This document shows, in pieces, positions 8,514-24,169 of a stretch of 26,113 nt of DNA. A program made the translations under genes and the position numbers. Under the pieces are notes generated by a model that was not told where the DNA came from, made no database searches, and worked only from the letters and a program-made list of their open reading frames with translations. Location: positions 1 through 26,113 of the IMG/VR virus record IMGVR_UViG_3300044642_001083; one strand, written 5' to 3'. The DNA comes from a virus. Position 1 is the stretch's first letter. Each line of letters begins with the position of its first letter.

Positions 8514-8714
8514 ATGCATAAGGAAAGTCAATGCTGGCACTTTGTAATGTCTTCATTTGCGAGGATTTATGGAGTCAAAAAAGTAATGAGTGACCCAACA
8601 TTTAGTTCTGTTGCTTCTCAATGGTGTGAAGAACACGGAGATGTATGCGATATAGAACTAGAAAGTCTGTCTAAAGTCGATGTGTATTTCAGAAAAATCT
8701 ATGAAGAACTTTGA
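8514..8714 (+). CDS. Small hypothetical protein between psbA and gnd
   Basis: A 66-residue acidic protein with no recognised family. It contains WCEEHGDVC (about residues 37-45), but its spacing of six residues between cysteines differs from the eight in CP12, so CP12 was not called. AGGGA at 8500-8504 is a reasonable ribosome binding site for the ATG at 8514. Its stop lies eight bases before the preferred gnd start, suggesting cotranscription with gnd from somewhere after the psbA terminator. Its position within a photosynthesis/carbon cassette hints at a metabolic link, but that is inference. Confidence 0.65.
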   Translation: MHKESQCWHFVMSSFARIYGVKKVMSDPTFSSVASQWCEEHGDVCDIELESLSKVDVYFRKIYEEL

Positions 8715-8721
8715 GTCTGTA

Positions 8722-9747
8722 ATGAGAGTCGGTTTGATAGGACTCGGGCGAATGGGCGAAGGAATGTCCCGTCGTATGATGAAGGCAGAAATAGAAGTTT
8801 GGGGTTATCGTAGAAGTTACGAAAAAGCGCAAGAAGCATTCGAAAAAGGTTATGTAAATGGCGTTGTAACTTCTATTGAAAATCTTGTCAAAGTAGTAAA
8901 AAAAGATGGGCAACAACCAGGAATCTTTCAGATGGTTGTACCTGCTGAAACAGTAGAAGAAACTATCGATGAGTTACTACGATATTGTAGCGAAGGAGAT
9001 ATTATCATTGACCATGGCAATAGCAATTTTAAAGATAGTCGGAAGAGAGCTGAACGACTCGCAAAGCAGGGCATCCAGTACATCGACTGTGGTACTTCTG
9101 GCGGTGTTTATGGCCTGGATCGTGGATACTGCCTTATGGTCGGTGGTGAGAATACTGCTGTTGCCGTCTGTGCAAAGATTTTTGATGCCCTCTCCCCAGG
9201 AATCAATGCCGCCACTAGGACTCAGTTTGATTCTGATGTAACCTCTGCTGAGTTCGGGTGGCTGCATTGCGGACCTCCAGGTGCTGGACATTTTGTAAAA
9301 ATGGTGCATAATGGCATTGAATATGGCATGATGCAAGCATACGCAGAAGGATTTAACATCATTAAGAACGCTAATGCAGGGGCTCAATATGTCAGAGAAG
9401 GAGATGCAGAGGTTGCCCCAATGGCAGATCCAGAAAGTTATTGCTATGACATTGACGTTGCTGAGGTTGCTGAGTTATGGCGTCGTGGTAGCGTGGTTGG
9501 GTCTTGGTTACTCGATCTTACTGCTGATGTGCTACGCAGGGATGGTAGCCTTAAACAGTTCTCTGGAGGCGTATCCGACAGCGGCGAGGGTCGTTGGACT
9601 GTTTCTGCCGCTGTGGATCTGGGGGTTCCCGCTCCTGTCATTACTACTGCACTATTTGAAAGATTTAACTCACGCAATCTCGGATCGTTCGGAGCAAAGA
9701 TCTTAAATGGCATGAGGTACATGTTCGGAGGACATCATGTTAGGTAA
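8722..9747 (+). CDS. gnd: 6-phosphogluconate dehydrogenase (decarboxylating)
   Basis: Converts 6-phosphogluconate to ribulose 5-phosphate, CO2 and NADPH in the oxidative pentose phosphate pathway. Residues 1-20 carry the NADP-binding turn GLGRMGEGM (Gly7, Gly9, Gly12). The substrate loop IDCGTSGGVYGLDRG is at about 121-135. The catalytic signature KMVHNGIEYGMMQ at 193-205 supplies Lys193, His196, Asn197 and Glu200. At 341 residues it matches the short single-domain-tail form typical of phages and some bacteria, not the 470-residue enterobacterial form. In-frame ATGs at 8680 and 8701 also exist but overlap the upstream gene; the start at 8722 places the dinucleotide fold right at the N-terminus. 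In cyanophages this enzyme is thought to provide NADPH and pentoses for nucleotide synthesis. Confidence 0.96.
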   Translation: MRVGLIGLGRMGEGMSRRMMKAEIEVWGYRRSYEKAQEAFEKGYVNGVVTSIENLVKVVKKDGQQPGIFQMVVPAETVEETIDELLRYCSEGDIIIDHGNSNFKDSRKRAERLAKQGIQYIDCGTSGGVYGLDRGYCLMVGGENTAVAVCAKIFDALSPGINAATRTQFDSDVTSAEFGWLHCGPPGAGHFVKMVHNGIEYGMMQAYAEGFNIIKNANAGAQYVREGDAEVAPMADPESYCYDIDVAEVAELWRRGSVVGSWLLDLTADVLRRDGSLKQFSGGVSDSGEGRWTVSAAVDLGVPAPVITTALFERFNSRNLGSFGAKILNGMRYMFGGHHVR

Positions 9748-10494: not shown

Positions 10495-10697
10495 TGTACG
10501 AAGATCTTACTGCGTTTGAAAGAGCTCTTGCTCGATTTGGCGATAAAGTTGCTCTAATTGCAGGGTTGGAAATTGCCGATAAAATGTCTCCAGAAGACGC
10601 CTATCAAGAAATTAAAAAACTCTATAGGGGTCTAAAGAAGTTACGTAAGAAAGAACGTGATTCTTGGAGTCTGGACAACGAAAATGATTTTGAATGA
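10494..10697 (+). CDS. Conserved small cyanophage-type protein
   Basis: 67 residues, with a hydrophobic-helical first half (FERALARFGDKVALIAGLE), the segment KMSPEDAYQEIKKLYRGLKK, and a very basic then acidic tail. The pattern of FGDK...L...K.SPEDAY..IK.LY is, from memory, typical of a small conserved hypothetical found in cyanomyoviruses; no function is known. It is coupled to the gene before it (TAATG) and overlaps the preferred bilin-reductase start by 14 bases. Confidence 0.65.
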   Translation: MYEDLTAFERALARFGDKVALIAGLEIADKMSPEDAYQEIKKLYRGLKKLRKKERDSWSLDNENDFE

Positions 10698-11346
10698 GTT
10701 GGTAACAAACGTATTCCAGGACTGGAGGGTGGTGAATGAATTACCTTCCGGTCTTTCTCATATTGAGAGATCGGGCATTACCGAGATAAAATCGTGGACA
10801 TGGGATGGAGACGGGATCAGACGTGCACGACTTTGTCAACTAATTGTCCCAGAGAAGTTTACTGCGGAGACCTTGGTCATCTACCCCACAGAGTTTTGCG
10901 AGGCTCCGATATTTGGTTGTGAGTATCTACGTATAGGCAATAAAAAATTTTTTGGTGGCATAGATTTTCATCCGCTTAGTCAATCGGAAACTTATTTGCG
11001 GGAGTATATAGACAATTACTTAGACGACATGCCTGATACTGAAGCTGAAACCTCTAAGTTCTACGATTTAAGTACCTATTTTTCAAAAAAGTTTTGGCTT
11101 AAGAAGGAAAACTATGACTTTTATCCTAGTTTCTACCAACAAACCTACGAATATCTGATAAGATATAGACAACTACTCGAAGAGATAGAATCAACCCATT
11201 CTATGTGGGGACTTCATAAAAAATATGACCTACATATGGGTAAACATGACCCTGCTCATGGCATCTTAAAGGCCTATTTTTCAGAAAAGTTTGCTGATTT
11301 CTACATTAGGAAGTTTCTATTTGATTTAATGGACGAGGAATCATGA
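10684..11346 (+). CDS. Ferredoxin-dependent bilin reductase (PebA/PebS-like)
   Basis: A 220-residue member of the HY2/ferredoxin-dependent bilin reductase family, which reduces biliverdin IXalpha or its products towards phycobilins using host ferredoxin. IKSWTWDGDGIRRARLCQL (35-53) matches the PebA segment IQSWLWD..GFRRWR. FGGIDFHPL (90-98) contains the central catalytic Asp94, and KYDLHMGKHDPAHG (180-193) contains the second catalytic Asp189. AYFSEKFADFYIRKFLFDL is the family's C-terminal helix. These features look closest to PebA (biliverdin to 15,16-dihydrobiliverdin); a PebS-type four-electron enzyme cannot be excluded by eye. The ATG at 10684 is preferred over 10657, which lies deeper in the upstream gene. 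No heme oxygenase is in the window. It overlaps the next gene by four bases (ATGA). Confidence 0.85.
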   Translation: MILNELVTNVFQDWRVVNELPSGLSHIERSGITEIKSWTWDGDGIRRARLCQLIVPEKFTAETLVIYPTEFCEAPIFGCEYLRIGNKKFFGGIDFHPLSQSETYLREYIDNYLDDMPDTEAETSKFYDLSTYFSKKFWLKKENYDFYPSFYQQTYEYLIRYRQLLEEIESTHSMWGLHKKYDLHMGKHDPAHGILKAYFSEKFADFYIRKFLFDLMDEES

Positions 11347-15274: not shown

Positions 15275-15350
15275 GCCTCTATAGCTCAGTGGCCAGAGCA
15301 CTCGCCTTGTAAGCGAGCGGTCCTCGGTTCAAATCCGAGTGGGGGCTCCA
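15275..15350 (+). tRNA. tRNA-Thr (anticodon TGT)
   Basis: A complete cloverleaf: acceptor GCCTCTA with TGGGGGC, D stem GCTC/GAGC, anticodon stem CTCGC/GCGAG around CTTGTAA, and T arm CTCGG/CCGAG. It is the only tRNA here that encodes its own 3' CCA. Reads ACA. Confidence 0.95.
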
Positions 15351-15422
15351 CGGGATGTAGCGCAGCGGTAGCGCGCCTGCTTTGGGAGCAGGATGTCGCA
15401 GGTTCGATCCCTGCCATCCCGA
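15351..15422 (+). tRNA. tRNA-Pro (anticodon TGG)
   Basis: Cloverleaf with acceptor CGGGATG/CATCCCG, anticodon stem CCTGC/GCAGG around TTTGGGA, and T arm GCAGG/CCTGC. It begins on the base after tRNA-Thr, so the two are processed from one transcript. No CCA is encoded. Reads CCA. Confidence 0.95.
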
Positions 15423-15436
15423 TCGTTTAAGTTTAA

Positions 15437-15457
15437 AGTATCTAGTATCTAGTATCT
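15437..15457 (+). repeat. Triplicated heptamer AGTATCT
   Basis: Three exact tandem copies of AGTATCT, starting 15 bases after tRNA-Pro and ending seven bases before the ATG at 15465. A short slippage-type repeat occupying the leader of the next gene. Confidence 0.7.
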
Positions 15458-15464
15458 CACTAAA

Positions 15465-15959
15465 ATGGCTATCAATTACACTCTGAATATCGGCTCGGTG
15501 AAGAAAAGACTCACTGAAGGCGAATTTTCTAACGTTATTGTCGAGGCATCTTTTGGCGTTTCGGCAAACTCTGATTCTGTGACTACAACTGACTCAGAAG
15601 GAAATGAGATCATTACCACCCCAGCTTTTTCATACTCGTGCGGTGGGACAAAAACCTTCTCTGTAAGTGGTCTTGACGCTGAAAATTTTGTTGAGTTTGA
15701 AAGCGTAACTAAGGACACTATTGTTCAGTGGCTCCTTGCTGAGGAAGGCGTAACTTCCGTTGAAGATTTTAGTTATGTTAAGAGTTCTATTCAAAATATT
15801 GCTCAGAGAATCTATGAGCATACTCTAGAGGTTCCTGAGAGTATTGCAGGTCAAGATCCTGCCGGCGCTTCGGACTATGTATATACTCCTCCTGCCCCCG
15901 CTCCAGAAGTTCCTGCTTCCGAAGAAATTATTAATGCTCCCGCTGAACCAATTGCATGA
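15465..15959 (+). CDS. Small structural-type phage protein
   Basis: 164 residues. The first 80 are strand-rich (INYTLNIGSVKKRL, VIVEASFGVSA, SYSCGGTKTFSVSG), followed by a helical part FVEFESVTKDTIVQWLLAEE and a Pro/Ala/Glu-rich tail ending at PAEPIA. The layout of beta N-terminus, then a V(T)xDTV.xW helix, then a short tail is reminiscent of small virion or tail-associated proteins common in cyanophages and other tailed phages; I cannot name it. It overlaps the glycosyltransferase start by four bases (ATGA). Confidence 0.65.
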   Translation: MAINYTLNIGSVKKRLTEGEFSNVIVEASFGVSANSDSVTTTDSEGNEIITTPAFSYSCGGTKTFSVSGLDAENFVEFESVTKDTIVQWLLAEEGVTSVEDFSYVKSSIQNIAQRIYEHTLEVPESIAGQDPAGASDYVYTPPAPAPEVPASEEIINAPAEPIA

Positions 15960-16633
15960 ATCTAACTTACCAATCATACTTAGGTAAGACAATCGTATTT
16001 TGCCTCCCAGGGTCTCATTATTCTGGGAGGTTTTTAGTAAGTTTTACCGAACTCATACTTACTTGTAAGCAACTTGGAATGAGTACTATCATCTCCCAAG
16101 ACTATAGCTCCATGGTTAATTACGCCAGATGCAAAGTTGCCGGGGCTGATGTCACTAGAGGCAAAAACCAAGCACCTTTTGGCGGAAAAGTTAACTATGA
16201 TTACATGATGTGGATTGATAGTGACATAAGATTTAATACTGAGAATTTTATGTCATTACTCAAGATGGACAAAGATATTGCCTCTGGTTGGTACTCCCAA
16301 CCTGGTGGTATGACGCCTGTTGTTGAGACAATGGACGAGGAGTACTTCAAATCCCATGGGTATTTTGAATTCATCTCTTCAGATGAGATGTCCAAACGCT
16401 CAGACCTCTTTAAAGCTGACTATGTAGGTTTTGGATGGGTGTTGATTAAACGTGGAGTATTTGAATCAATTTCCTATCCGTGGTTCGCACCAAAATTGCT
16501 AAAAATAGGTGAAGATTTAGAAGATATGTGTTCGGAGGACGTGTCCTTTTGCATAGACGCAAGACAAGTTGGACATGAGATATGGGTAGATCCGACCGTA
16601 AGAGTCGGGCATGAAAAACTATTGACCATTTGA
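15956..16633 (+). CDS. GT-A glycosyltransferase (GT2-like)
   Basis: 225 residues. YDYMMWIDSDIRF (81-93) contains the metal- and nucleotide-sugar-binding DxD (Asp88, Asp90) after a hydrophobic strand. The segment SSMVNYARCKVAGADVTRG (51-69) matches the region ahead of the DxD in GT-A enzymes of this type. YVGFGWVLIKRGVFESI and SEDVSFCIDARQVGHEIWVD near the C-terminus correspond to the acceptor-site ED and the conserved core. No membrane segment, so a soluble cytoplasmic enzyme. The acceptor is unknown; virion-protein or host-glycan modification are both possible. Its stop lies inside the promoter for the following tRNAs. Confidence 0.8.
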   Translation: MNLTYQSYLGKTIVFCLPGSHYSGRFLVSFTELILTCKQLGMSTIISQDYSSMVNYARCKVAGADVTRGKNQAPFGGKVNYDYMMWIDSDIRFNTENFMSLLKMDKDIASGWYSQPGGMTPVVETMDEEYFKSHGYFEFISSDEMSKRSDLFKADYVGFGWVLIKRGVFESISYPWFAPKLLKIGEDLEDMCSEDVSFCIDARQVGHEIWVDPTVRVGHEKLLTI

Positions 16634-16650
16634 GGTTTTTCTGATAGAAT
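16622..16650 (+). promoter_or_regulatory. Sigma70-type promoter of the Arg/Asn/Gly tRNA group
   Basis: TTGACC at 16622-16627, a 17-base spacer, and TAGAAT at 16645-16650 with extended -10 TG at 16642. The -35 lies in the last codons of the glycosyltransferase gene. It is the nearest upstream signal for the tRNAs from 16737. Confidence 0.65.
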
Positions 16651-16736
16651 ATTCTCATGAGCAGCAAAGGTCCAAACTTTGCGTAAGTCTCGCCCCTCCT
16701 AAGCCTCTCAATGATGCTCAAATCTGGAGGTCTCTT

Positions 16737-16810
16737 GTCTCAGTAGCTCAGATGGATAGAGCATCTCACTTCTAATGAGTTGGTCGGGGGTTCGAGTCCC
16801 TCCTGAGACG
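16737..16810 (+). tRNA. tRNA-Arg (anticodon TCT)
   Basis: Acceptor GTCTCAG/CTGAGAC, D stem GCTC/GAGC, anticodon loop CTTCTAA, T arm GGGGG/CCCTC. The top pair of the anticodon stem is a T-T mismatch. No CCA is encoded. Reads AGA, a codon frequent in the AT-rich genes of this window. Confidence 0.93.
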
Positions 16811-16836
16811 TTGGAAACCAATAGGTTTTCAAATAT

Positions 16837-16908
16837 TCCACAATAGCTCAGCGGTAGAGTAGGTGACTGTTAATCACTTTGTCCCTGGTTCGAATCCAGG
16901 TTGTGGAG
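16837..16908 (+). tRNA. tRNA-Asn (anticodon GTT)
   Basis: Acceptor TCCACAA/TTGTGGA, D stem GCTC/GAGT, anticodon arm GGTGA/TCACT around CTGTTAA, T arm CCTGG/CCAGG. No CCA is encoded. Confidence 0.94.
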
Positions 16909-16935
16909 TTGGATGGACTTTAGTTCTTCCATACG

Positions 16936-16958
16936 AACCGGGATCATCATATCCGGTT
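16936..16958 (+). repeat. Hairpin between tRNA-Asn and tRNA-Gly
   Basis: GAACCGGGAT and ATCCGGTTC pair over nine bases with one bulged G and a short loop. No T-run follows. It may be a processing site between the two tRNAs. Confidence 0.4.
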
Positions 16959-16964
16959 CATCCT

Positions 16965-17035
16965 GCGGGCATGGTGTAGAGGTAACATCTCAGCCTTCCA
17001 AGCTGCAGTCACCGGTTCGATCCCGGTTGCCCGCT
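16965..17035 (+). tRNA. tRNA-Gly (anticodon TCC)
   Basis: Acceptor GCGGGCA/TGCCCGC, D stem GTGT/ACAT, anticodon stem TCAGC/GCTGC around CTTCCAA, T arm ACCGG/CCGGT. No CCA is encoded. Reads GGA. Confidence 0.94.
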
Positions 17036-17037
17036 TC

Positions 17038-17057
17038 CCCACAGCATTTTGTGGGGT
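17038..17057 (+). terminator. Hairpin after the tRNA group
   Basis: CCCCACA and TGTGGGG form a 7-base stem with a short loop two bases after tRNA-Gly. The following TTCATTTGA is only moderately T-rich, so it may be a weak terminator or a processing stem. Confidence 0.5.
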
Positions 17058-17085
17058 TCATTTGACCAATAATTATTAAAAAATA

Positions 17086-17967
17086 ATGAAACTTCAAACA
17101 ATTTTTGCCGCTGGTATTGTTGCTGCTACTGCAGTCTCTCCTGCCATGGCCCAAGTCACCAGTGTCACTCAATTGCGTGATGTTCAACCCACCGAGTGGT
17201 CCTATCAGGCCATTTCTAATCTGGTATCGCGTTATGGTTGCGTTGCTGGTTATCCCAATGGCACCTTCCAACCTGGTCAACCTGCTACTCGTGCTGAACT
17301 CGCAGCTCTGACCAATGCTTGCCTTGATCGCATTGTAGAGTTCCAGACAGTCACTGATGCCCAACTCGCTGCAGCACTTCGTGCTGAGTTTGCTAAAGAA
17401 CTGGGTGCAACTAATGTTCGTGTAGCCCGCCTTGAAAAGGCCGCTGCTCAAAAGGCCCAAGGCGTTGGCAACTACGTTGGCATCGGTGTTCTTCTGAATA
17501 AGCAGGGTGTTGATGGTGGTGGTTATACCGAAAACCGCACTATCTCTGGTGGTACTCTTCAGACCCGTTACGCAGCAAAAACCTTTAAAAACCTGAATGC
17601 AGTATCTGTTCGTCCTTACCTGAATGCTGTTGCTGGTCCTAATAGTGACATTGGTACTGCTGGTGGCGCTCTGATCTCCTATGACTGGAGTATTGCCAAA
17701 GCCAAATCTGGTGTAAGTAGCGCTAACATCTATACCGGCGTTGGTTACCAAGTCCCCTTCACCAATGATACCCAGGCCAACTATCAGTCCGCTATCGGCG
17801 AGAAAGGTCAAGTAGTCCTGGCACTCGGCATTGAAGGTCGTCTCACCAACTCCTTGGTTGGTTTCGCCGATCTGAAATTCCCCACCACTAACGCCGGTAA
17901 CGCCTACGGTGGTAGTAACGCTGCCTACTCGCCTGTCTTCACCACTGGCCTTGGTTTCAAGTTCTGA
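17086..17967 (+). CDS. Cyanobacterial-type SLH-domain outer-membrane porin
   Basis: 293 residues with a clear signal peptide: basic start, hydrophobic core and an AMA|Q cleavage after about residue 22. Residues about 27-83 are an SLH domain (DVQPTEWSYQAISNLV, GCVAGYPNGTFQPGQPATRA), which binds pyruvylated peptidoglycan-linked sugar in cyanobacteria. A short coiled-coil linker follows (about 88-120), then a beta-strand-rich C-terminus ending GLGFKF, with the terminal Phe recognised by the outer-membrane assembly machinery. Cyanobacterial SomA/OprB-type porins are usually over 500 residues, so the barrel part (about 170 residues) is cut down. A phage copy would place a small pore or decoy in the host outer membrane; that role is inferred. 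Codon use is GC-richer than in neighbouring genes, consistent with host origin. Confidence 0.85.
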   Translation: MKLQTIFAAGIVAATAVSPAMAQVTSVTQLRDVQPTEWSYQAISNLVSRYGCVAGYPNGTFQPGQPATRAELAALTNACLDRIVEFQTVTDAQLAAALRAEFAKELGATNVRVARLEKAAAQKAQGVGNYVGIGVLLNKQGVDGGGYTENRTISGGTLQTRYAAKTFKNLNAVSVRPYLNAVAGPNSDIGTAGGALISYDWSIAKAKSGVSSANIYTGVGYQVPFTNDTQANYQSAIGEKGQVVLALGIEGRLTNSLVGFADLKFPTTNAGNAYGGSNAAYSPVFTTGLGFKF

Positions 17968-18185
17968 TGACTGTTACCTCTAACGAGTTCGGCCAACAAA
18001 ACATGTGGGCTAAAGAGCCCGAAATGTACATCGATCCTATCATCCAAGAAAAAATGCAAAAAGAAGCCTACCAAACTCACAACGAACGCGCAGAGATGCT
18101 CAATGGCCGACTGGCTATGCTTGGCATCATCGCGGCCTTTGGCTCCTACGCCCTAACCGGTCAGATTATCCCTGGCATCTGGTGA
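17967..18185 (+). CDS. hli: High-light-inducible protein (Hli)
   Basis: 72 residues, a single-helix chlorophyll/carotenoid-binding protein of the LHC-like family that sits in the thylakoid membrane and protects photosystems. The signature AEMLNGRLAMLGIIAAFGSY (about 42-61) carries the Glu/Arg charge pair and the Asn that bind chlorophyll, followed by LTGQIIPGIW. The N-terminal half is polar. Its ATG shares a base with the porin stop (TGATG), so the two are translationally coupled. It is followed by two tandem terminators. Confidence 0.96.
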   Translation: MTVTSNEFGQQNMWAKEPEMYIDPIIQEKMQKEAYQTHNERAEMLNGRLAMLGIIAAFGSYALTGQIIPGIW

Positions 18186-18210
18186 TGGTTGAGACCATCT
18201 TCACAATTAC

Positions 18211-18237
18211 GAGCATCAGCTTCCTGGTGCTCCTTTT
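18211..18237 (+). terminator. Rho-independent terminator 1 after hli
   Basis: GAGCATCA (18211-18218) pairs with TGGTGCTC (18225-18232) with one T-G wobble and a six-base loop, followed by CTTTTT. It ends the porin-hli transcript. Confidence 0.8.
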
Positions 18238-18260
18238 TCACTCTATCAATCAACTCTCTG

Positions 18261-18286
18261 AGACCTACTGACTTAGGTCTTTTTTT
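18261..18286 (+). terminator. Rho-independent terminator 2 after hli
   Basis: AGACCTA (18261-18267) pairs perfectly with TAGGTCT (18274-18280), followed by six T to 18286. tRNA-Ser begins on the next base, so the T-run forms its immediate leader. Confidence 0.8.
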
Positions 18287-18373
18287 GGAAGGTCAAGCAG
18301 ATTGGCGACTGCAGCGCTCTTGAAAAGCGTCGAGGTGTTAAAGCCCTTGGGAGTTCGACTCTCCCACCTTCCG
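18287..18373 (+). tRNA. tRNA-Ser (anticodon TGA)
   Basis: A class II tRNA of 87 bases: acceptor GGAAGGT/ACCTTCC, anticodon stem GCGCT/AGCGT around CTTGAAA, a long variable arm, T arm GGGAG/CTCCC. No CCA is encoded. Reads UCA. It lies immediately after a terminator, so it depends on read-through or an unseen promoter. Confidence 0.93.
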
Positions 18374-18420
18374 TTGTTTAAAGATACTATTGAGAATAGT
18401 TTGTATTTATATATACCAAA

Positions 18421-18837
18421 ATGGCCATTCCATTTAGGGGCCCAGATGTAAGACTGGCCGTTTTAGAGGAGAAACTTGGCGTCTATGAGGAACTCTCAAA
18501 AGAGATGTTAGCAAAACTCGAGACAGCAGTAGATAAGATTTCCGAAGCTAATCAGAATGTTGCTAAGATCTTGGTTCGTCATGAGGAGCGACTTGATCAG
18601 ACTATTCAATCTGATAATGCTATAATGAAACTACTTGAGGAATTAAAAAAATCTCACGAGAAGGATAATGAGAAGATGGGAGATGAGATTGTAGCAATAA
18701 ATACAAGGATTGATGAGTTATCCAAATTTCGTTGGATTCTCGCCGGGATATTATTAGTTGTTGGTATTGTAGCTGGTCAGGTAAACGTCTTAGAGTCTAT
18801 GTTCCCTCAACCTCCATCAGTTCATTCCTCACAATGA
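18421..18837 (+). CDS. Coiled-coil protein with C-terminal membrane anchor
   Basis: 138 residues. From about residue 8 to 105 it is a continuous heptad-patterned helix (LAVLEEKLGVYEELSKEML, AVDKISEANQNVAKILVRHE), then a single hydrophobic segment ILAGILLVVGIVAG (about 108-121) and a short polar tail. The layout resembles phage XhlA/holin-accessory or small membrane-tethered coiled-coil proteins that occur in many cyanophages; the lysis role is unproven. It overlaps the next gene start in an ATGA junction. Confidence 0.7.
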   Translation: MAIPFRGPDVRLAVLEEKLGVYEELSKEMLAKLETAVDKISEANQNVAKILVRHEERLDQTIQSDNAIMKLLEELKKSHEKDNEKMGDEIVAINTRIDELSKFRWILAGILLVVGIVAGQVNVLESMFPQPPSVHSSQ

Positions 18838-18995
18838 GAGGACAACGCGTAGGGTTTATATATAACAAAGCCTGGAAAAGTGGTATAATACAGTGCGTAT
18901 CTGTTGAATTTCCAGGTTATTATGCCGTATTTCTTGTCAAAGACTCCACTGGCGCAGTTATCCCCGTGGATTCACGAGACATTTCATACCTATAG
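18834..18995 (+). CDS. Small beta-rich hypothetical protein
   Basis: 53 residues from the ATG at 18834 (MRGQRVGFIYNKAWKSGIIQ), ending VIPVDSRDISYL. Short alternating strands and Gly turns suggest a small SH3-like barrel. The start is chosen for its four-base overlap with the upstream stop; a longer in-frame extension upstream is a shadow of the coiled-coil gene. An extended -10 word TGGTATAAT occurs inside it at 18881-18889 and may be fortuitous. Confidence 0.6.
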   Translation: MRGQRVGFIYNKAWKSGIIQCVSVEFPGYYAVFLVKDSTGAVIPVDSRDISYL

Positions 18996-19026
18996 AATTG
19001 AAATCATAGGAGTTTTAAGTTTTCTA

Positions 19027-19055
19027 TTGATATTTGTTCCTATCTATGGTATAAT
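19027..19055 (+). promoter_or_regulatory. Sigma70-type promoter of the Ile/Met/Leu tRNA group
   Basis: TTGATA at 19027-19032, a 17-base spacer and TATAAT at 19050-19055 with extended -10 TG at 19047. It ends 32 bases before tRNA-Ile and is the best promoter in the window. Confidence 0.8.
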
Positions 19056-19087
19056 GGTCATACACCAGAAACCTGGTAAATGAGTTC

Positions 19088-19159
19088 GGGACTGTCGCCT
19101 ATTGGTTAAGGCCCACTGCTTATAACGGTGTGAAGAGGGTTCAATTCCCTCCAGTCCTA
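19088..19159 (+). tRNA. tRNA-Ile (anticodon TAT)
   Basis: Acceptor GGGACTG/CAGTCCT with a G-U first pair, D stem GCCT/AGGC, anticodon stem CACTG/CGGTG around CTTATAA, T arm GAGGG/CCCTC, variable loop of four. The UAU anticodon reads AUA directly; bacteria normally use a lysidine-modified CAU tRNA instead. No CCA is encoded. Confidence 0.88.
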
Positions 19160-19162
19160 TCT

Positions 19163-19235
19163 GCTCCTTTAGCAATCTGGCGAATGCAATCGACTCATAA
19201 TCGATCGGAGGTGAGTTCGATCCTCACAAGGAGCA
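19163..19235 (+). tRNA. tRNA-Met or tRNA-Ile2 (anticodon CAT)
   Basis: Acceptor GCTCCTT/AAGGAGC, anticodon stem ATCGA/TCGAT around CTCATAA, T arm GTGAG/CTCAC. The paired first base of the acceptor makes it not an initiator. Elongator Met is the default; because the neighbouring tRNA already reads AUA, a lysidine-type Ile is less needed but cannot be excluded. Confidence 0.85.
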
Positions 19236-19238
19236 CCT

Positions 19239-19321
19239 GCACGAGTGGCGGAATTGGTAGACGCCCGGGTTTTAGGTACCCGTATCCTTGCGATGTGGAG
19301 GTTCAAGTCCTCTCTCGTGCA
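19239..19321 (+). tRNA. tRNA-Leu (anticodon TAG)
   Basis: A class II tRNA of 83 bases: acceptor GCACGAG/CTCGTGC, anticodon stem CGGGT/ACCCG around TTTAGGT, long variable arm, T arm with TTCAAGT loop. No CCA is encoded. Reads CUA. Confidence 0.93.
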
Positions 19322-19355
19322 TTTTTAGGTTAAAGGTTGTTATTGCAAGGGGTTT

Positions 19356-19664
19356 ATGCTCTCTACACAAACAAGATTAAGGCTCGAAGCGATTGCTGAA
19401 AAAATTGCTTTTCATCAAGAAGTTTCTTTTGAAGAGATGCAATGGGCGCAAAAATGGGCCGAGAATAATCGCTCAGCCGCTTCAATTCTTAACAAAGCCC
19501 GCAGAATTGCAGTCAATGGTATACCAGAAAAAGACTCACTCGATGAGTTTATGAATGATCTCGATCTTGGTGATCCTGATCCTTCCAATCACCTCATCGG
19601 ACCACAAGACCCAGATACCTTAGCCAGATGGTTTAAAGCTCCGCCATGGCTGAAAAACGATTAA
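19356..19664 (+). CDS. Conserved cyanophage hypothetical protein
   Basis: 102 residues. The N-terminal half is helical and charged (TRLRLEAIAEKIA, EMQWAQKWAENNRSAASIL), and the C-terminal half has the acidic segment LDEFMNDLDLGDPDPSNHLI followed by GPQDPDTLARWF. I recognise the DLGDPDPSNHL.GPQDPDTL pattern from memory as a conserved small cyanomyovirus protein of unknown function. The ATG at 19356 has AAGGGG about ten bases upstream. Confidence 0.75.
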   Translation: MLSTQTRLRLEAIAEKIAFHQEVSFEEMQWAQKWAENNRSAASILNKARRIAVNGIPEKDSLDEFMNDLDLGDPDPSNHLIGPQDPDTLARWFKAPPWLKND

Positions 19665-19789
19665 TCACAGAAGAGGAGTTTAAGAGGCTATCAGAGATGG
19701 CTAATAGTCTCAAACTCCGAGAACTATTCGAAGAACCATCCACCTACGAAGACGAGTTAGAGGACGAACGCTATGGGTTTATTATCTAA
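19646..19789 (+). CDS. Small acidic hypothetical protein, 47 residues
   Basis: MAEKRLITEEEFKRLSEMAN opens a helical, Glu-rich peptide ending DERYGFII. It overlaps the upstream gene by 19 bases and the next gene by 17 bases, typical of compressed phage operons. No family is recognised. Confidence 0.6.
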   Translation: MAEKRLITEEEFKRLSEMANSLKLRELFEEPSTYEDELEDERYGFII

Positions 19790-19922
19790 GCAAGACTATG
19801 ACCGCGTTATAGAAGCCCTTGAGTATTACCTGGAGTCACATCAAGAGGCTCCAGATTTTGACTCTTTAGGGTATAATAATTTAGTTAATTGGTTAAAAAT
19901 TTGCGTCTCAAAGGGCGATTAA
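19773..19922 (+). CDS. Small hypothetical protein whose stop lies in a tRNA
   Basis: 49 residues: MGLLSKQDYDRVIEALEYYL and then a short helical C-terminus NNLVNWLKICVSKGD. Its last three sense codons and its stop overlap the first ten bases of tRNA-Val (19913 on); the TAA is formed by the tRNA's own position 8-9 region. No family is recognised. Translation and tRNA processing from the same transcript would be mutually exclusive. Confidence 0.6.
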   Translation: MGLLSKQDYDRVIEALEYYLESHQEAPDFDSLGYNNLVNWLKICVSKGD

Positions 19923-19984
19923 CTCAGCGGTAGAGTGCCTCCTTTACACGGAGATGGTCACTGGTTCGAATCCAGTATCGCCCA
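19913..19984 (+). tRNA. tRNA-Val (anticodon TAC)
   Basis: Acceptor GGGCGAT/ATCGCCC, D stem ACTC/GAGT, anticodon stem CCTCC/GGAGA around TTTACAC, T arm ACTGG/CCAGT. No CCA is encoded. Reads GUA. Overlaps the 3' end of the preceding small gene. Confidence 0.94.
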
Positions 19985-20221: not shown

Positions 20222-20251
20222 TTGACATGACCCTCATCCCTGGAGTATGAT
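20222..20251 (+). promoter_or_regulatory. Sigma70-type promoter overlapping a terminator
   Basis: TTGACA at 20222-20227 (perfect -35), an 18-base spacer, and TATGAT at 20246-20251. The -10 forms the loop of the terminator at 20236-20270. Transcription would start near 20258, in the 3' arm of that hairpin, about 15 bases before the ATG at 20274. Confidence 0.6.
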
Positions 20252-20270
20252 TGCTCTAGGGATTTTTTTT
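20236..20270 (+). terminator. Rho-independent terminator after the CP12-like gene
   Basis: ATCCCTGGAG (20236-20245) pairs with CTCTAGGGAT (20254-20263) over ten bases with one G-T wobble, eight-base loop, and a run of T to 20270. Confidence 0.85.
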
Positions 20271-20273
20271 GTC

Positions 20274-20798
20274 ATGAACATCTTCTTCCTTGATCACGAT
20301 CCTAAAACTGCTGCGGAGTACCACTGCGATAAGCATGTTAACAAGATGATTATCGAGCATCTCCAGATGATGAGTGTTGCTCTTGCGCATCACGGGTTTG
20401 ATCCGGCTCGGAAGAAAGATGGAGAGTTTTATAAGGTTCGTGGTTTTAAAAACCATCCTTGTACGCTTTGGGTTAAGGAATCCATGCCAAATTTTGTCTG
20501 GACATGGAAACTTACTTGGTATCTATGTGAGGAATTCAAGACCAGATATGGCAAAGAGCATTCTGGTAAAAATAGTCTAAAATCCATTGATCTTGAGTCG
20601 GTACTACGTGACTACCCTGAGGTAGGTTTTACCTCTCCTGCCCAGGCCATGCCTGATTTTTGTAAAGTTCCTCATAACCCGGTTAAAGCCTATCGTAATT
20701 ACTATAACTGGATGAAGTGGCGATTTGCCACATGGAAAACCGAAGAACCGGATTGGTGGGCCCCCAGTTGTCTTCTAGAAGCAAAAAATGAATACTAA
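20274..20798 (+). CDS. Conserved phage protein, possible pyrimidine-dimer glycosylase-type family
   Basis: 174 residues from the ATG at 20274; an upstream in-frame ATG at 20247 lies inside the terminator hairpin and is rejected. The N-terminus MNIFFLDHDPKTAAEYHCDK, then HVNKMIIEHLQMM, is a widespread phage pattern (FLDxDPxxxAxxxCDKHVxKMxxE). Later NHPCTLWVKES, RNYYNWMKWRFATW and SPAQAMPDFCKV follow the same family. Such proteins are sometimes annotated as pyrimidine-dimer DNA glycosylase related, but I am not sure of that assignment and see no proven catalytic residues. The many conserved His, Asp, Cys and Trp suggest an enzyme. It overlaps the next gene by 11 bases. Confidence 0.65.
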   Translation: MNIFFLDHDPKTAAEYHCDKHVNKMIIEHLQMMSVALAHHGFDPARKKDGEFYKVRGFKNHPCTLWVKESMPNFVWTWKLTWYLCEEFKTRYGKEHSGKNSLKSIDLESVLRDYPEVGFTSPAQAMPDFCKVPHNPVKAYRNYYNWMKWRFATWKTEEPDWWAPSCLLEAKNEY

Positions 20799-21432
20799 AT
20801 ATTGCCTGATCGGAGATCTTCATGGTCGAGTAGATACACTAGATAAGATACTTGACAAATCCAGTGGGTACAAGTACGTATTTATGGGTGATATTATCCA
20901 CCACAAGCCATTCTTTAGAAGATCTAAGCGCTCCTCCCCGCTCAAAATGATGAGTAAGGTGAAGAGGTTGGTAAAGTCCGAAGATGCTCTGTTCATCTTA
21001 GGTAATAATGAAAATTATATTCTTAAAAACCTCCTCTTACCCGAGGAGGATATTCTTCAAAAAGAAGTTAAGTATACTCTTGGATGCCTAAGAGACCTTT
21101 CCCTTGAGGAGAGACTTGATTACCTCCATTGGTTAACCACCTCCCCATTAACTTTGGAGTTTGAGTCATATGGTAAGGTTTACCGTTGCGCCCATGCCTA
21201 CTATAACCCCAACTACACACCAGAGACACGTAACTCTGTACTTACTGGGATAGGTTATCCTTGGTTTAAATTGGACAAACTTGAAGATCACATTAAGCCT
21301 GATGCTGAGTATTTCTTTGGCCATTATGGATACCCCTACTTCCGTAAGAACTTAAAGATCATTGATGCGACCAACTTCGAAGGCGTCGGGGTATATTACA
21401 CAGATCGTGAAGAGTTTTTAATCTACTACTAA
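20788..21432 (+). CDS. Calcineurin-like metallophosphatase with altered motifs
   Basis: 214 residues with the full PPP-type metallophosphoesterase order: GDLHGR (9-14), GDIIHHK (34-40), GNNENYIL (72-79), a conserved His in CAHAYYNP (His136) and GHYG (178-181). The metal-binding Asp9-or-10, His12, Asp35, Asn73, His136 and His179 are present. Two changes stand out: GDxxDRG is GDIIHH, and the catalytic-acid His of GNHE is Asn74. Phage homologues such as lambda NinI are protein phosphatases; ApaH-type enzymes cut dinucleoside tetraphosphates. Either is possible, and the Asn substitution may lower or change activity. No membrane segment. Confidence 0.8.
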   Translation: MNTKYCLIGDLHGRVDTLDKILDKSSGYKYVFMGDIIHHKPFFRRSKRSSPLKMMSKVKRLVKSEDALFILGNNENYILKNLLLPEEDILQKEVKYTLGCLRDLSLEERLDYLHWLTTSPLTLEFESYGKVYRCAHAYYNPNYTPETRNSVLTGIGYPWFKLDKLEDHIKPDAEYFFGHYGYPYFRKNLKIIDATNFEGVGVYYTDREEFLIYY

Positions 21433-21478: not shown

Positions 21479-24169
21479 ATGTCAAAACTAAACTCTCTTG
21501 GGTACGTTGTTCTTTCCGATGCAATGAACTCAAAGGTATTTGGTGAGGATACCAACTGTGCCTCTGTGTCCGATAAGAAACTCTCCTCTATTAAAGAAGA
21601 GATGGAGAAGTTTGGCGTTGAGTTTCCTATTAAAAACCCAGACAACTTCTTTATCGAGGACTTCTCCCTTCCGCAGTTAAAATCTGGAAATATTAAGGAT
21701 CATTTTGACAAGATCTCAAAAGATCTCGCGGAGGATAACATCAAAGTGATGAAGGACTTTGCGTACACAGAGATCCCTGACGCACCTGATAAAACCGAAT
21801 TCTTTTTATATGCCGGTTGGGTCAAGTATCCTTTTGATGGTTCTCCAGAGGTAGTAGATGGCATTGAGGAGGATATCGCCATCTATGACTGTGAGACTTT
21901 TGTTAAGGGTAGTGAATTCGGCCATCCCATCATGGCTACTGCAGTTACTCCTAAAGCTTACTATATCTGGATGCATCCAGCATTTGTAAATACAAACCTT
22001 GATTACCAACCAACTCTTGTACCTATTGGTAGTAAGGATAAGATTCTTATTGCTCACAACGTAGCATTTGACCGGGCTCGCACCCAAGAAGCTTATACTC
22101 TTGGTAAGACTAATCTTTGGTTTGACACAATGTCCGCTCATATTAACGTGAGTGGGTTGGCATCTGGACAACGATGGTGGTATTTACAAAAAGCTGCTAA
22201 GAAAGCATCTTACAAAGCCGATCCCGTATGGGCTGATAAGGGTTCGATGAATAACCTCATCGACTGTTATAACTTCCATTGCCAACCCATGGTCCCCCTT
22301 GAGCAGGAAGACAAGAAGATTCGTAATATCTTTGTAGATGCTTGCTCTATGCAGGAGTTTGTACCCGAACGTGACGAGCTTATTGCCTATGCACTCAACG
22401 ACGTAAAAATTACCTTCGAGTTATACTCAATCCTCTTCCTCAAGTACATCCAAAACAACCCTTCGCTCACGACTCTGATTGGACATTTTGGTATCGCTTC
22501 TGCCCATCTTCCTGTGGTCAATGATTGGGAAAAATGGTTCGCGGACTGCGAAAAGCAATGGGAGGATTCGATCTCGCGTCAGGAGGATATTCTCAGTCAA
22601 ATGGCCCAAGAGGTATATCAGTCGTGGAATGAAGGGGAACTGACCGACGAGGATATTAAAGCGGATCCATGGCTCTCACAACTTGATTGGGAGGCTAATT
22701 TTAAACTCACTAAGGCTGGGAAACCCAGTTCGAAGTGGTATGGGGTGCCTAAGTGGGTAAGGAGTGCCTCATCAAAAGATCTTGTGGATGGAAAACCTGT
22801 TATCCAGGGTATCTCCACTAAAAACCGTCTATCTCATATCCTTCTCCGCCTTAAGTGGAACGATCAACCAATCCACTATTTCACTGACAAGGGTTGGTGC
22901 TTTATGGACGAGGAGTTGGGAGATTATATCCGTATTCCGCATACTGACGGGGAGGGGGTCAATGTTGGTGGTGTACTTACTAAGGATTATGCTGATGACT
23001 TTGAATCGGGACAGTTGAGTTCCGATCTTGAAGAGGCTAGGGAACTCATCAAGTTAGCAATTAATGTTGCTTATTGGACTTCGGTGAGGAGCAGGGTGAG
23101 AGAACAACTTGTGGAAGTAATCAAAACCCCAGAAGGTAATTCTTTTAAGATGATTGTTCCCGCTGCAGTACCCCATAACACTTCTACTAACCGAGCCGGA
23201 GAGAATCTATGGTTGACTGTCCCAGATCCTAAGTACGATAAGATTGGTAGCGAAATCAAGACTCGGGTCCAGGCCCCTGAAGGTTATGTATTCGTCCAGT
23301 CCGACTTTGACGCCCAAGAAGCCGTAGTTGCCTCGATCTTTGCCGACTCATACCACAAGGTGGCCGGGAGCACTCAGTTCTCTCACTCGATCCTTGCCGG
23401 GAGTAAAGACGATGGGACTGACATGCACTCTATGACTGCAAAGGCCATCGGAATCTCTCGTGCTATTGCCAAAGGTTGTAACTACGGAATGCTTTATGGA
23501 TGTGGAGCTAAGACTCTTGCCAATACCATTCGCAAGGGGAATAAAAACATCCCGATGAAGCAGGCCATTGACATGGGCAATAAACTCATTAAGATTAAGA
23601 AGGGAGAGAAGGCCTCACGGACTTCTCAGACGCTCATCGGTGGGTCTGACTCCTATGCCTACAACGAGATGGCCCGTATCGCCAACCTACCTTCCCCCAT
23701 CAACCCTCTCAGTGGTACTAAGATGTCCACGGCTTTCCGTCCTACATCAGTGGGTACTGATTTCTGGACCATGCGTAATAACTGGTGCATTCAATCCACA
23801 GGGAGCGCTATGCTCCATGCCTTCATGACGGCCATGGAGTGGTTGAATAAGGAGTACCGACTTGATGCGGAGTTCTGCATGAGTGTCCATGACAGCATCC
23901 TCTATCTCTGCCCTGAGGCTCAGGCCGAGAAGGTTGCAGCCCTTTTCCAGGTAGCTCATGCTTGGTGTTGGGCCTGGATGCGGTATAATTACGACATCTA
24001 TGAGCTCCCAGTGGCAAATGCCTGGCTCTCTTCTATCGAGATCGATAGCATCTTCCGTAAAGCAGCCACAGCAAATACCAAAACTGTTTCTCAACAAAAA
24101 ACTGAATCCGATGGACAATCAAGAACAATCCAAGAACTCATCCCAGTCCTCAACTCCCTCTTCGGGTAA
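21479..24169 (+). CDS. DNA polymerase, family A, mitochondrial gamma-like
   Basis: 896 residues with an N-terminal 3'-5' proofreading exonuclease and a C-terminal polymerase. Exonuclease: Exo I IYDCETF (Asp137, Glu139), Exo II AHNVAFDRA (192-200, Asp198), Exo III YALNDVK (304-310, Asp308). Polymerase: motif A SDFDAQEAVVAS (608-619, Asp609), motif B SRAIAKGCNYGMLYG (Arg661, Lys665, Tyr669), motif C MSVHDSILYL (His804, Asp805). The whole chain is collinear with human POLG: DTMSAHINVSGLASGQR, KADPWLSQLDWE, LKWNDQPIHYFTDKGW, NRAGENLWLTVPDPK and IGSEIKTRVQAPEGYVFVQS all have clear counterparts in the same order. This is not the family B polymerase of T4-like phages. Motif C has Ser where Glu is usual. 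It is probably the replicative polymerase of the phage. Confidence 0.95.
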   Translation: MSKLNSLGYVVLSDAMNSKVFGEDTNCASVSDKKLSSIKEEMEKFGVEFPIKNPDNFFIEDFSLPQLKSGNIKDHFDKISKDLAEDNIKVMKDFAYTEIPDAPDKTEFFLYAGWVKYPFDGSPEVVDGIEEDIAIYDCETFVKGSEFGHPIMATAVTPKAYYIWMHPAFVNTNLDYQPTLVPIGSKDKILIAHNVAFDRARTQEAYTLGKTNLWFDTMSAHINVSGLASGQRWWYLQKAAKKASYKADPVWADKGSMNNLIDCYNFHCQPMVPLEQEDKKIRNIFVDACSMQEFVPERDELIAYALNDVKITFELYSILFLKYIQNNPSLTTLIGHFGIASAHLPVVNDWEKWFADCEKQWEDSISRQEDILSQMAQEVYQSWNEGELTDEDIKADPWLSQLDWEANFKLTKAGKPSSKWYGVPKWVRSASSKDLVDGKPVIQGISTKNRLSHILLRLKWNDQPIHYFTDKGWCFMDEELGDYIRIPHTDGEGVNVGGVLTKDYADDFESGQLSSDLEEARELIKLAINVAYWTSVRSRVREQLVEVIKTPEGNSFKMIVPAAVPHNTSTNRAGENLWLTVPDPKYDKIGSEIKTRVQAPEGYVFVQSDFDAQEAVVASIFADSYHKVAGSTQFSHSILAGSKDDGTDMHSMTAKAIGISRAIAKGCNYGMLYGCGAKTLANTIRKGNKNIPMKQAIDMGNKLIKIKKGEKASRTSQTLIGGSDSYAYNEMARIANLPSPINPLSGTKMSTAFRPTSVGTDFWTMRNNWCIQSTGSAMLHAFMTAMEWLNKEYRLDAEFCMSVHDSILYLCPEAQAEKVAALFQVAHAWCWAWMRYNYDIYELPVANAWLSSIEIDSIFRKAATANTKTVSQQKTESDGQSRTIQELIPVLNSLFG

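Follow-up and report, generated by a model that had tools for sequence, protein, structure and literature searches.

A cyanophage POLG-type DNA polymerase of the S-TIM5 lineage and its relation to mitochondrial POLG

The stretch of DNA analysed here (the window) is a linear IMG/VR fragment of 26 kb (26,113 nucleotides). It carries an intact open reading frame of 2691 bp with an ATG start and no internal stops, whose 896-residue product is a family A DNA polymerase of the mitochondrial POLG type. The polymerase gene, its two upstream neighbours and the motifs within it are as follows.

20247-20798 (+): PHROG "DNA binding protein" with a weak pyrimidine-dimer glycosylase match; 56% identity in S-TIM5
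20788-21432 (+): calcineurin-like metallophosphoesterase; 53% identity in S-TIM5
21479-24169 (+): POLG-type family A DNA polymerase (896 aa), likely replicative, of an S-TIM5-like cyanomyovirus
21884-21901 (+): Exo I motif YDCETF (D137, E139), aligned with Mip1 and mouse POLG
22052-22081 (+): Exo II motif AHNVAFDRAR (N194, D198), aligned with Mip1 and mouse POLG
22385-22414 (+): Exo III motif AYALNDVKIT (Y304, D308), aligned with Mip1 and mouse POLG
22664-22924 (+): POLG-type linker core DPWLSQLDW...WYGVPKWVR...LRLKWNDQPIHYF...GWCF, from the alignment; accessory-subunit insert missing
23294-23323 (+): Pol motif A VQSDFDAQEA (D609, E614), aligned with Mip1 and mouse POLG
23459-23506 (+): Pol motif B RAIAKGCNYGMLYGCG with the mitochondrial-type tyrosine (alignment; PMC7156551)
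23879-23902 (+): Pol motif C MSVHDSIL, from the alignment, with HDS in place of the HDE of mitochondrial POLG

Polymerases were assigned to the mitochondrial/phage POLG type when PF18136 ("DNA mitochondrial polymerase exonuclease domain") above its curated cut-off was followed by a family A domain above its own, and both domains were found in this order in the window protein (PF18136, E 1.3e-55, 189 bits, cut-off 26.7; PF00476, E 5.2e-14, 52.4 bits, cut-off 34.3). The top match in a sequence search of the PDB was yeast Mip1 (E 1.9e-120), followed by mammalian POLG (E ~1e-90), while the next family A match, bacterial Pol I, reached only 1e-4. Residues 3-476 and 482-895 were collinear with Mip1 13-484 and 523-955, which bears out the preliminary description in its claim that the chain follows POLG from the exonuclease through the linker to the C-terminus. 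Both segments quoted there also had counterparts in the mitochondrial enzymes: LKWNDQPIHYF aligned with LSWENSPVIWS in Mip1 and LTWDGFPLHYS in mouse POLG, and IGSEIKTRVQAPEGY with IGSELKTQVKAPPGY (Mip1) and VGSELKAMVQAPPGY (mouse). Judged from these alignments, the similarity lies far beyond chance, and we confirmed that the window polymerase is a true homologue of mitochondrial POLG.

The full set of catalytic aspartates in Exo I-III and Pol A-C was kept in the alignment. The motif C glutamate is replaced by serine throughout the S-TIM5-type clade (HDS in 99 of 99 sequences, 63 of them distinct), and because HDS stands in place of HDE, full catalytic activity of the window polymerase is uncertain. 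This change is not unique to the S-TIM5 type, since HDS or HDA was found also in unrelated phage family A polymerases. The motif B tyrosine is common to Mic1 and S-TIM5 (PMC7156551).

Comparison of the spacer with the PDB sequences showed where the resemblance ends. Mammalian POLG has ~66 additional residues ahead of the P.W.R block, and its accessory-subunit contact insert of ~120 residues (588-709) is reduced to ~5 residues (478-483) in the window, so that the insert characteristic of the metazoan two-subunit holoenzyme is missing. The HGTP_anticodon domain of POLG2-like proteins was detected in none of the 21 POLG phage records, including the window as a 26-kb fragment, with all 14 controls positive. 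The shrunken insert and the lack of this domain in the 21 records point to a Mip1-like single-subunit enzyme. The "full-length POLG architecture" proposed initially thus holds for the Mip1-like core but not for the complete mammalian enzyme, and the accessory-subunit contact region named for comparison has no equivalent in the window. An AlphaFold model of the polymerase (mean pLDDT 86, pTM 0.85) agreed with the alignments: ranks 1-36 of the structure comparison were all POLG (E to 2e-58, TM 0.75-0.89), whereas T7 polymerase was matched with E 1.8e-12 and a TM of ~0.35.

The rest of the window identified the virus. Its genes include psbA, a topoisomerase II/gyrase subunit, an alpha-glucosyltransferase, gnd, speD and a baseplate/tail-fibre connector, and ten tRNA genes (Thr, Pro, Arg, Asn, Gly, Ser, Ile, Met, Leu, Val) lie within 4.7 kb (15275-19984). 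When the 36 window ORFs were compared with S-TIM5 1-54 kb, 22 had counterparts there (S-TIM5 0.8-39 kb) in conserved order save for gnd. By polymerase, S-TIM5 was also the nearest isolate (72% identity along the full length), and the two polymerases were sisters in the maximum-likelihood tree (support 100/100). The virus, known here from 26 kb of gene sequence, therefore belongs to the S-TIM5 cyanomyovirus lineage (Aurunvirus), the group that had been named as a possible home for it, and its polymerase gene is ordinary for that lineage. An IMG/VR search yielded 44 close polymerase loci and profile scans yielded further ones, so members of this polymerase family occur commonly among environmental phage sequences; single-protein scans with the S-CBWM1 and A-HIS1 POLGs added almost no new loci.

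Two regions of the window differed from S-TIM5. The gnd gene (6-phosphogluconate dehydrogenase; 8680-9747, +) adjoins psbA at a place occupied by psbD in S-TIM5, whose own gnd lies at 31.5 kb. A divergent ferredoxin-dependent bilin reductase-like protein is encoded at 10657-11346 (+); it scored below the curated NCBIfam cut-offs, had at most 28% identity to the listed phage bilin reductases and was without a counterpart in S-TIM5 1-54 kb.

In the maximum-likelihood trees, the outgroup consisted of T7, Pol I and further phage polymerases, and mitochondrial POLG was represented by the aligned parts of two eukaryotic sequences and Mic1 by the products of its two ORFs placed side by side, an arrangement with which the uninterrupted genes of L220 and L221 agreed. 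All POLG-type enzymes formed a single group (100/100) that excluded T7 and Pol I; in it the window stood with mitochondrial POLG and its cyanophage relatives, as had been predicted. Five phage branches were resolved (S-TIM5 type, S-CBWM1 type, A-HIS, Mic1-like and L225/L234), with mutual identities of mostly ~26-38%. It could be argued that the protein belongs with the family A polymerases of T7 or with bacterial Pol I and resembles POLG only at the level of motifs, since it does have the family A palm motifs and matched further phage polymerases weakly (E 1e-7 to 1e-3). However, its alignment with POLG takes in the PF18136 exonuclease and the linker core along the whole length, the predicted fold is far closer to POLG than to T7 polymerase, and the AU test rejected a union of the S-TIM5 type with T7 gp5 (p 4e-5). 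We regard such an identity as ruled out by tree and structure, with a negligible residual chance; a firm T7-like or Pol I-like placement with an unalignable linker, which would have undone the original reading, is the opposite of what was observed.

The relation to mitochondria proved more distant than originally suggested. Mitochondrial POLG was placed with the Mic1-like phages in three trees (support 82/99, 88/85 and 95/90, with two eukaryotic sequences), which makes these phages its favoured sister. A descent of mitochondrial POLG from S-TIM5-type phage stock could draw on the motif B tyrosine that this type shares with mitochondria (alignment; PMC7156551). Against it, the Mic1-like enzymes are closer to mouse POLG (41% identity versus 30% for the S-TIM5 type), and AU tests with two eukaryotic sequences rejected the S-TIM5 type as nearest kin of the eukaryotes (p 0.004, 0.0047 and, on full length, 6e-52), so that this descent is very improbable and the closeness of the window branch to mitochondria had been overstated. 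Full-length AU tests likewise rejected joining mitochondria with the S-CBWM1 type (p 7e-4) or the A-HIS type (p 4e-4), while a union of L225/L234 with eukaryotes (p 0.056) or with Mic1 was only marginally worse (p 0.054-0.056 for the two); the L225/L234 lineage is perhaps nearer to mitochondria than the window's branch. Phage monophyly was not rejected (p 0.44 and 0.26, with two eukaryotic sequences), which leaves either direction of transfer possible; a nesting of eukaryotes within phage POLG diversity was not proven (p 0.26-0.44), and the trees are no proof that mitochondria acquired POLG from phage. The gene could instead have moved from eukaryotes into phages, rather than in reverse or from an older common source, and a monophyletic phage group with eukaryotes as its sister is compatible with the AU tests. 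The five deep phage lineages at such low mutual identity exclude a recent capture, however, and the rejected union of the window branch with eukaryotes also speaks against this direction. An ancient eukaryote-to-phage transfer is still conceivable, and we consider it, like the eukaryote-to-phage direction as a whole, unlikely.

Several further POLG loci were encountered in the wider set. The L225/L234 lineage is a deep one, with an 844-aa ORF (L234 4192-6726; L225 1446-3980) at no more than ~30% identity to the others; it belongs to a contractile-tail phage, and L234 encodes a distant phrog_25243 primase upstream of its polymerase. The reading of this lineage as a non-cyanobacterial phage was unsupported, the L234 portal being closest to those of a Leptolyngbya phage and Mic1. 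Group I introns interrupt motif A of phage POLGs in L048 (7815-8087), L108 (7463-7684) and L218 and L219 (5629-5847), as called from Rfam RF00028 matches (E 1e-8 to 1e-4) that fell short of the gathering score. The 298-bp intron of the Mic1 POLG is published; no description of those in L108, L218 and L219 was found in the literature searched. The L108 POLG is in three pieces, its second gap being without explanation, and L220 and L221 are intronless relatives with uninterrupted Mic1-like genes. A search of genome contigs for POLG in heterotrophic bacteria gave one truncated match, an N-terminus at L122 5001-5978; the contig had been assigned to a Microbacteriaceae bin and is possibly a mis-binned phage contig.

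The POLG phages were also searched for other replication proteins. The S-TIM5 "DNA primase" belongs to phrog_25243, and the DUF5906 domain at its centre contains Walker A/B-like motifs; its predicted model was weak (pLDDT 67, TM ~0.3) and resembled SF3/D5-type primase-helicases, with weak matches to ASFV PrimPol, SaPI5, NrS-1, poxvirus E5/D5 and papillomavirus E1. Among 50,697 phage records, tblastn found phrog_25243 in nine, exactly the full-genome POLG-bearing records, which represent seven phages of four lineages. The HMM detected it in 21 of 26 POLG records (the other five being incomplete) and had no match in T7. In the reverse direction, four long new primase records (G025, G027, G028, G030) all contained POLG, as did 10 of the 10 primase records of at least 99 kb; all these counts come from records of common ancestry rather than from independent events. 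DnaB_C, the family to which T7 gp4 belongs and TWINKLE is related, was found in none of the 21 POLG phage records, although the model recognises T7 gp4, and T7-type RNA polymerase was likewise found in none of the 21, with a positive T7 control. Each POLG phage record had one PF00476 locus, and PolB was detected in none of those tested. The primase gene lies outside the window; in S-TIM5 it is at 143.6-145.5 kb, beyond the collinear stretch. That phage POLG is accompanied by a single SF3/D5-type primase-helicase is possibly a new observation. It could reflect a gene set inherited together rather than a working complex, and the idea that the two form an obligatory, vertically kept replication module, apart from the T7-like set, is put forward tentatively, as something we hold to be possible but doubtful.

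Taken as a whole, the window polymerase is very probably the sole replicative polymerase of an S-TIM5-lineage phage, a Mip1-like POLG homologue with phrog_25243 as its partner. The ORF would serve as the only replicative DNA polymerase of the cyanomyovirus, most likely as a single-subunit, proofreading family A enzyme like yeast Mip1 that works without a POLG2-like accessory subunit; its fork partner would most likely be the phage SF3/D5-type primase-helicase and not a TWINKLE/DnaB helicase. The analysis establishes homology, intact catalytic aspartates, predicted fold, phylogeny and co-occurrence; that the enzyme polymerises and proofreads, is processive and works with the primase-helicase is our inference.

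Of the known relatives of mitochondrial POLG outside eukaryotes, the phage enzymes are the closest. The preliminary description was right about the POLG type and the cyanophage lineage, and overstated the novelty as well as the nearness to mitochondria. PMC7156551 lists POLG genes in A-HIS1/2 (Chan 2011), S-TIM5 (Sabehi 2012), S-CBWM1 (Xu 2018) and Mic1 and gives the phage POLGs a common origin with opisthokont mitochondrial POLG; such viruses have accordingly been known since 2011-2012, and the window gene is not new in kind. By itself the window copy adds little. Its value lies in the wider comparison, which makes the origin question more testable by identifying the phage branch closest to mitochondria and adds the new deep lineage of L225 and L234 as well as the uninterrupted Mic1-like genes of L220 and L221. 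Nor did the 21 POLG phage records contain a DnaB-type helicase or a T7-type RNA polymerase, the two remaining components of the mitochondrial replisome that are T7-like. If the proposed module were real, the mitochondrial replisome would be a composite instead of a gift of all three parts from one phage donor: POLG would come from, or be shared with, Mic1-like cyanophage ancestors, and an unrelated, T7-like source would have supplied TWINKLE and the mitochondrial RNA polymerase.

Among known systems, T7 gp5 and bacterial DNA polymerase I share the family A palm motifs with the window polymerase but are without the POLG-type exonuclease and linker and form a separate clade. The mammalian POLG catalytic subunit agrees with the window enzyme in its core fold (TM up to 0.89) at ~30% identity; the accessory-subunit contact insert is present in the mammalian enzyme and missing from the phage one. 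Yeast Mip1, which is active without an accessory subunit, shares the collinear exonuclease-linker-polymerase core at ~31% identity; unlike the window it has HDE in motif C, and it is longer than the match, the alignment stopping at 955 of a 1240-aa PDB chain. The POLGs of S-CBWM1, A-HIS1, A-HIS2 and Mic1 resemble the window in their PF18136-type exonuclease, linker core and family A domain, and the primase phrog_25243 is common to the full genomes. They differ in BLAST identity (31-35%), in motif C (HDE, found in all S-CBWM1- and A-HIS-type sequences), in motif B (F in the S-CBWM1 and A-HIS types, tyrosine in the window) and, for Mic1, in a group I intron. According to PMC7156551, the polymerase, flap endonuclease, helicase and primase of Mic1 are common to A-HIS1/2 and S-CBWM1. 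The closest known system is the S-TIM5 polymerase (AEZ65654.1; Aurunvirus, with S-TIM54, S-TIM61 and S-TIM66), which differs from the window enzyme at ~28% of residues and shares with it the HDS motif C, the NYG motif B and the gene order around the polymerase.
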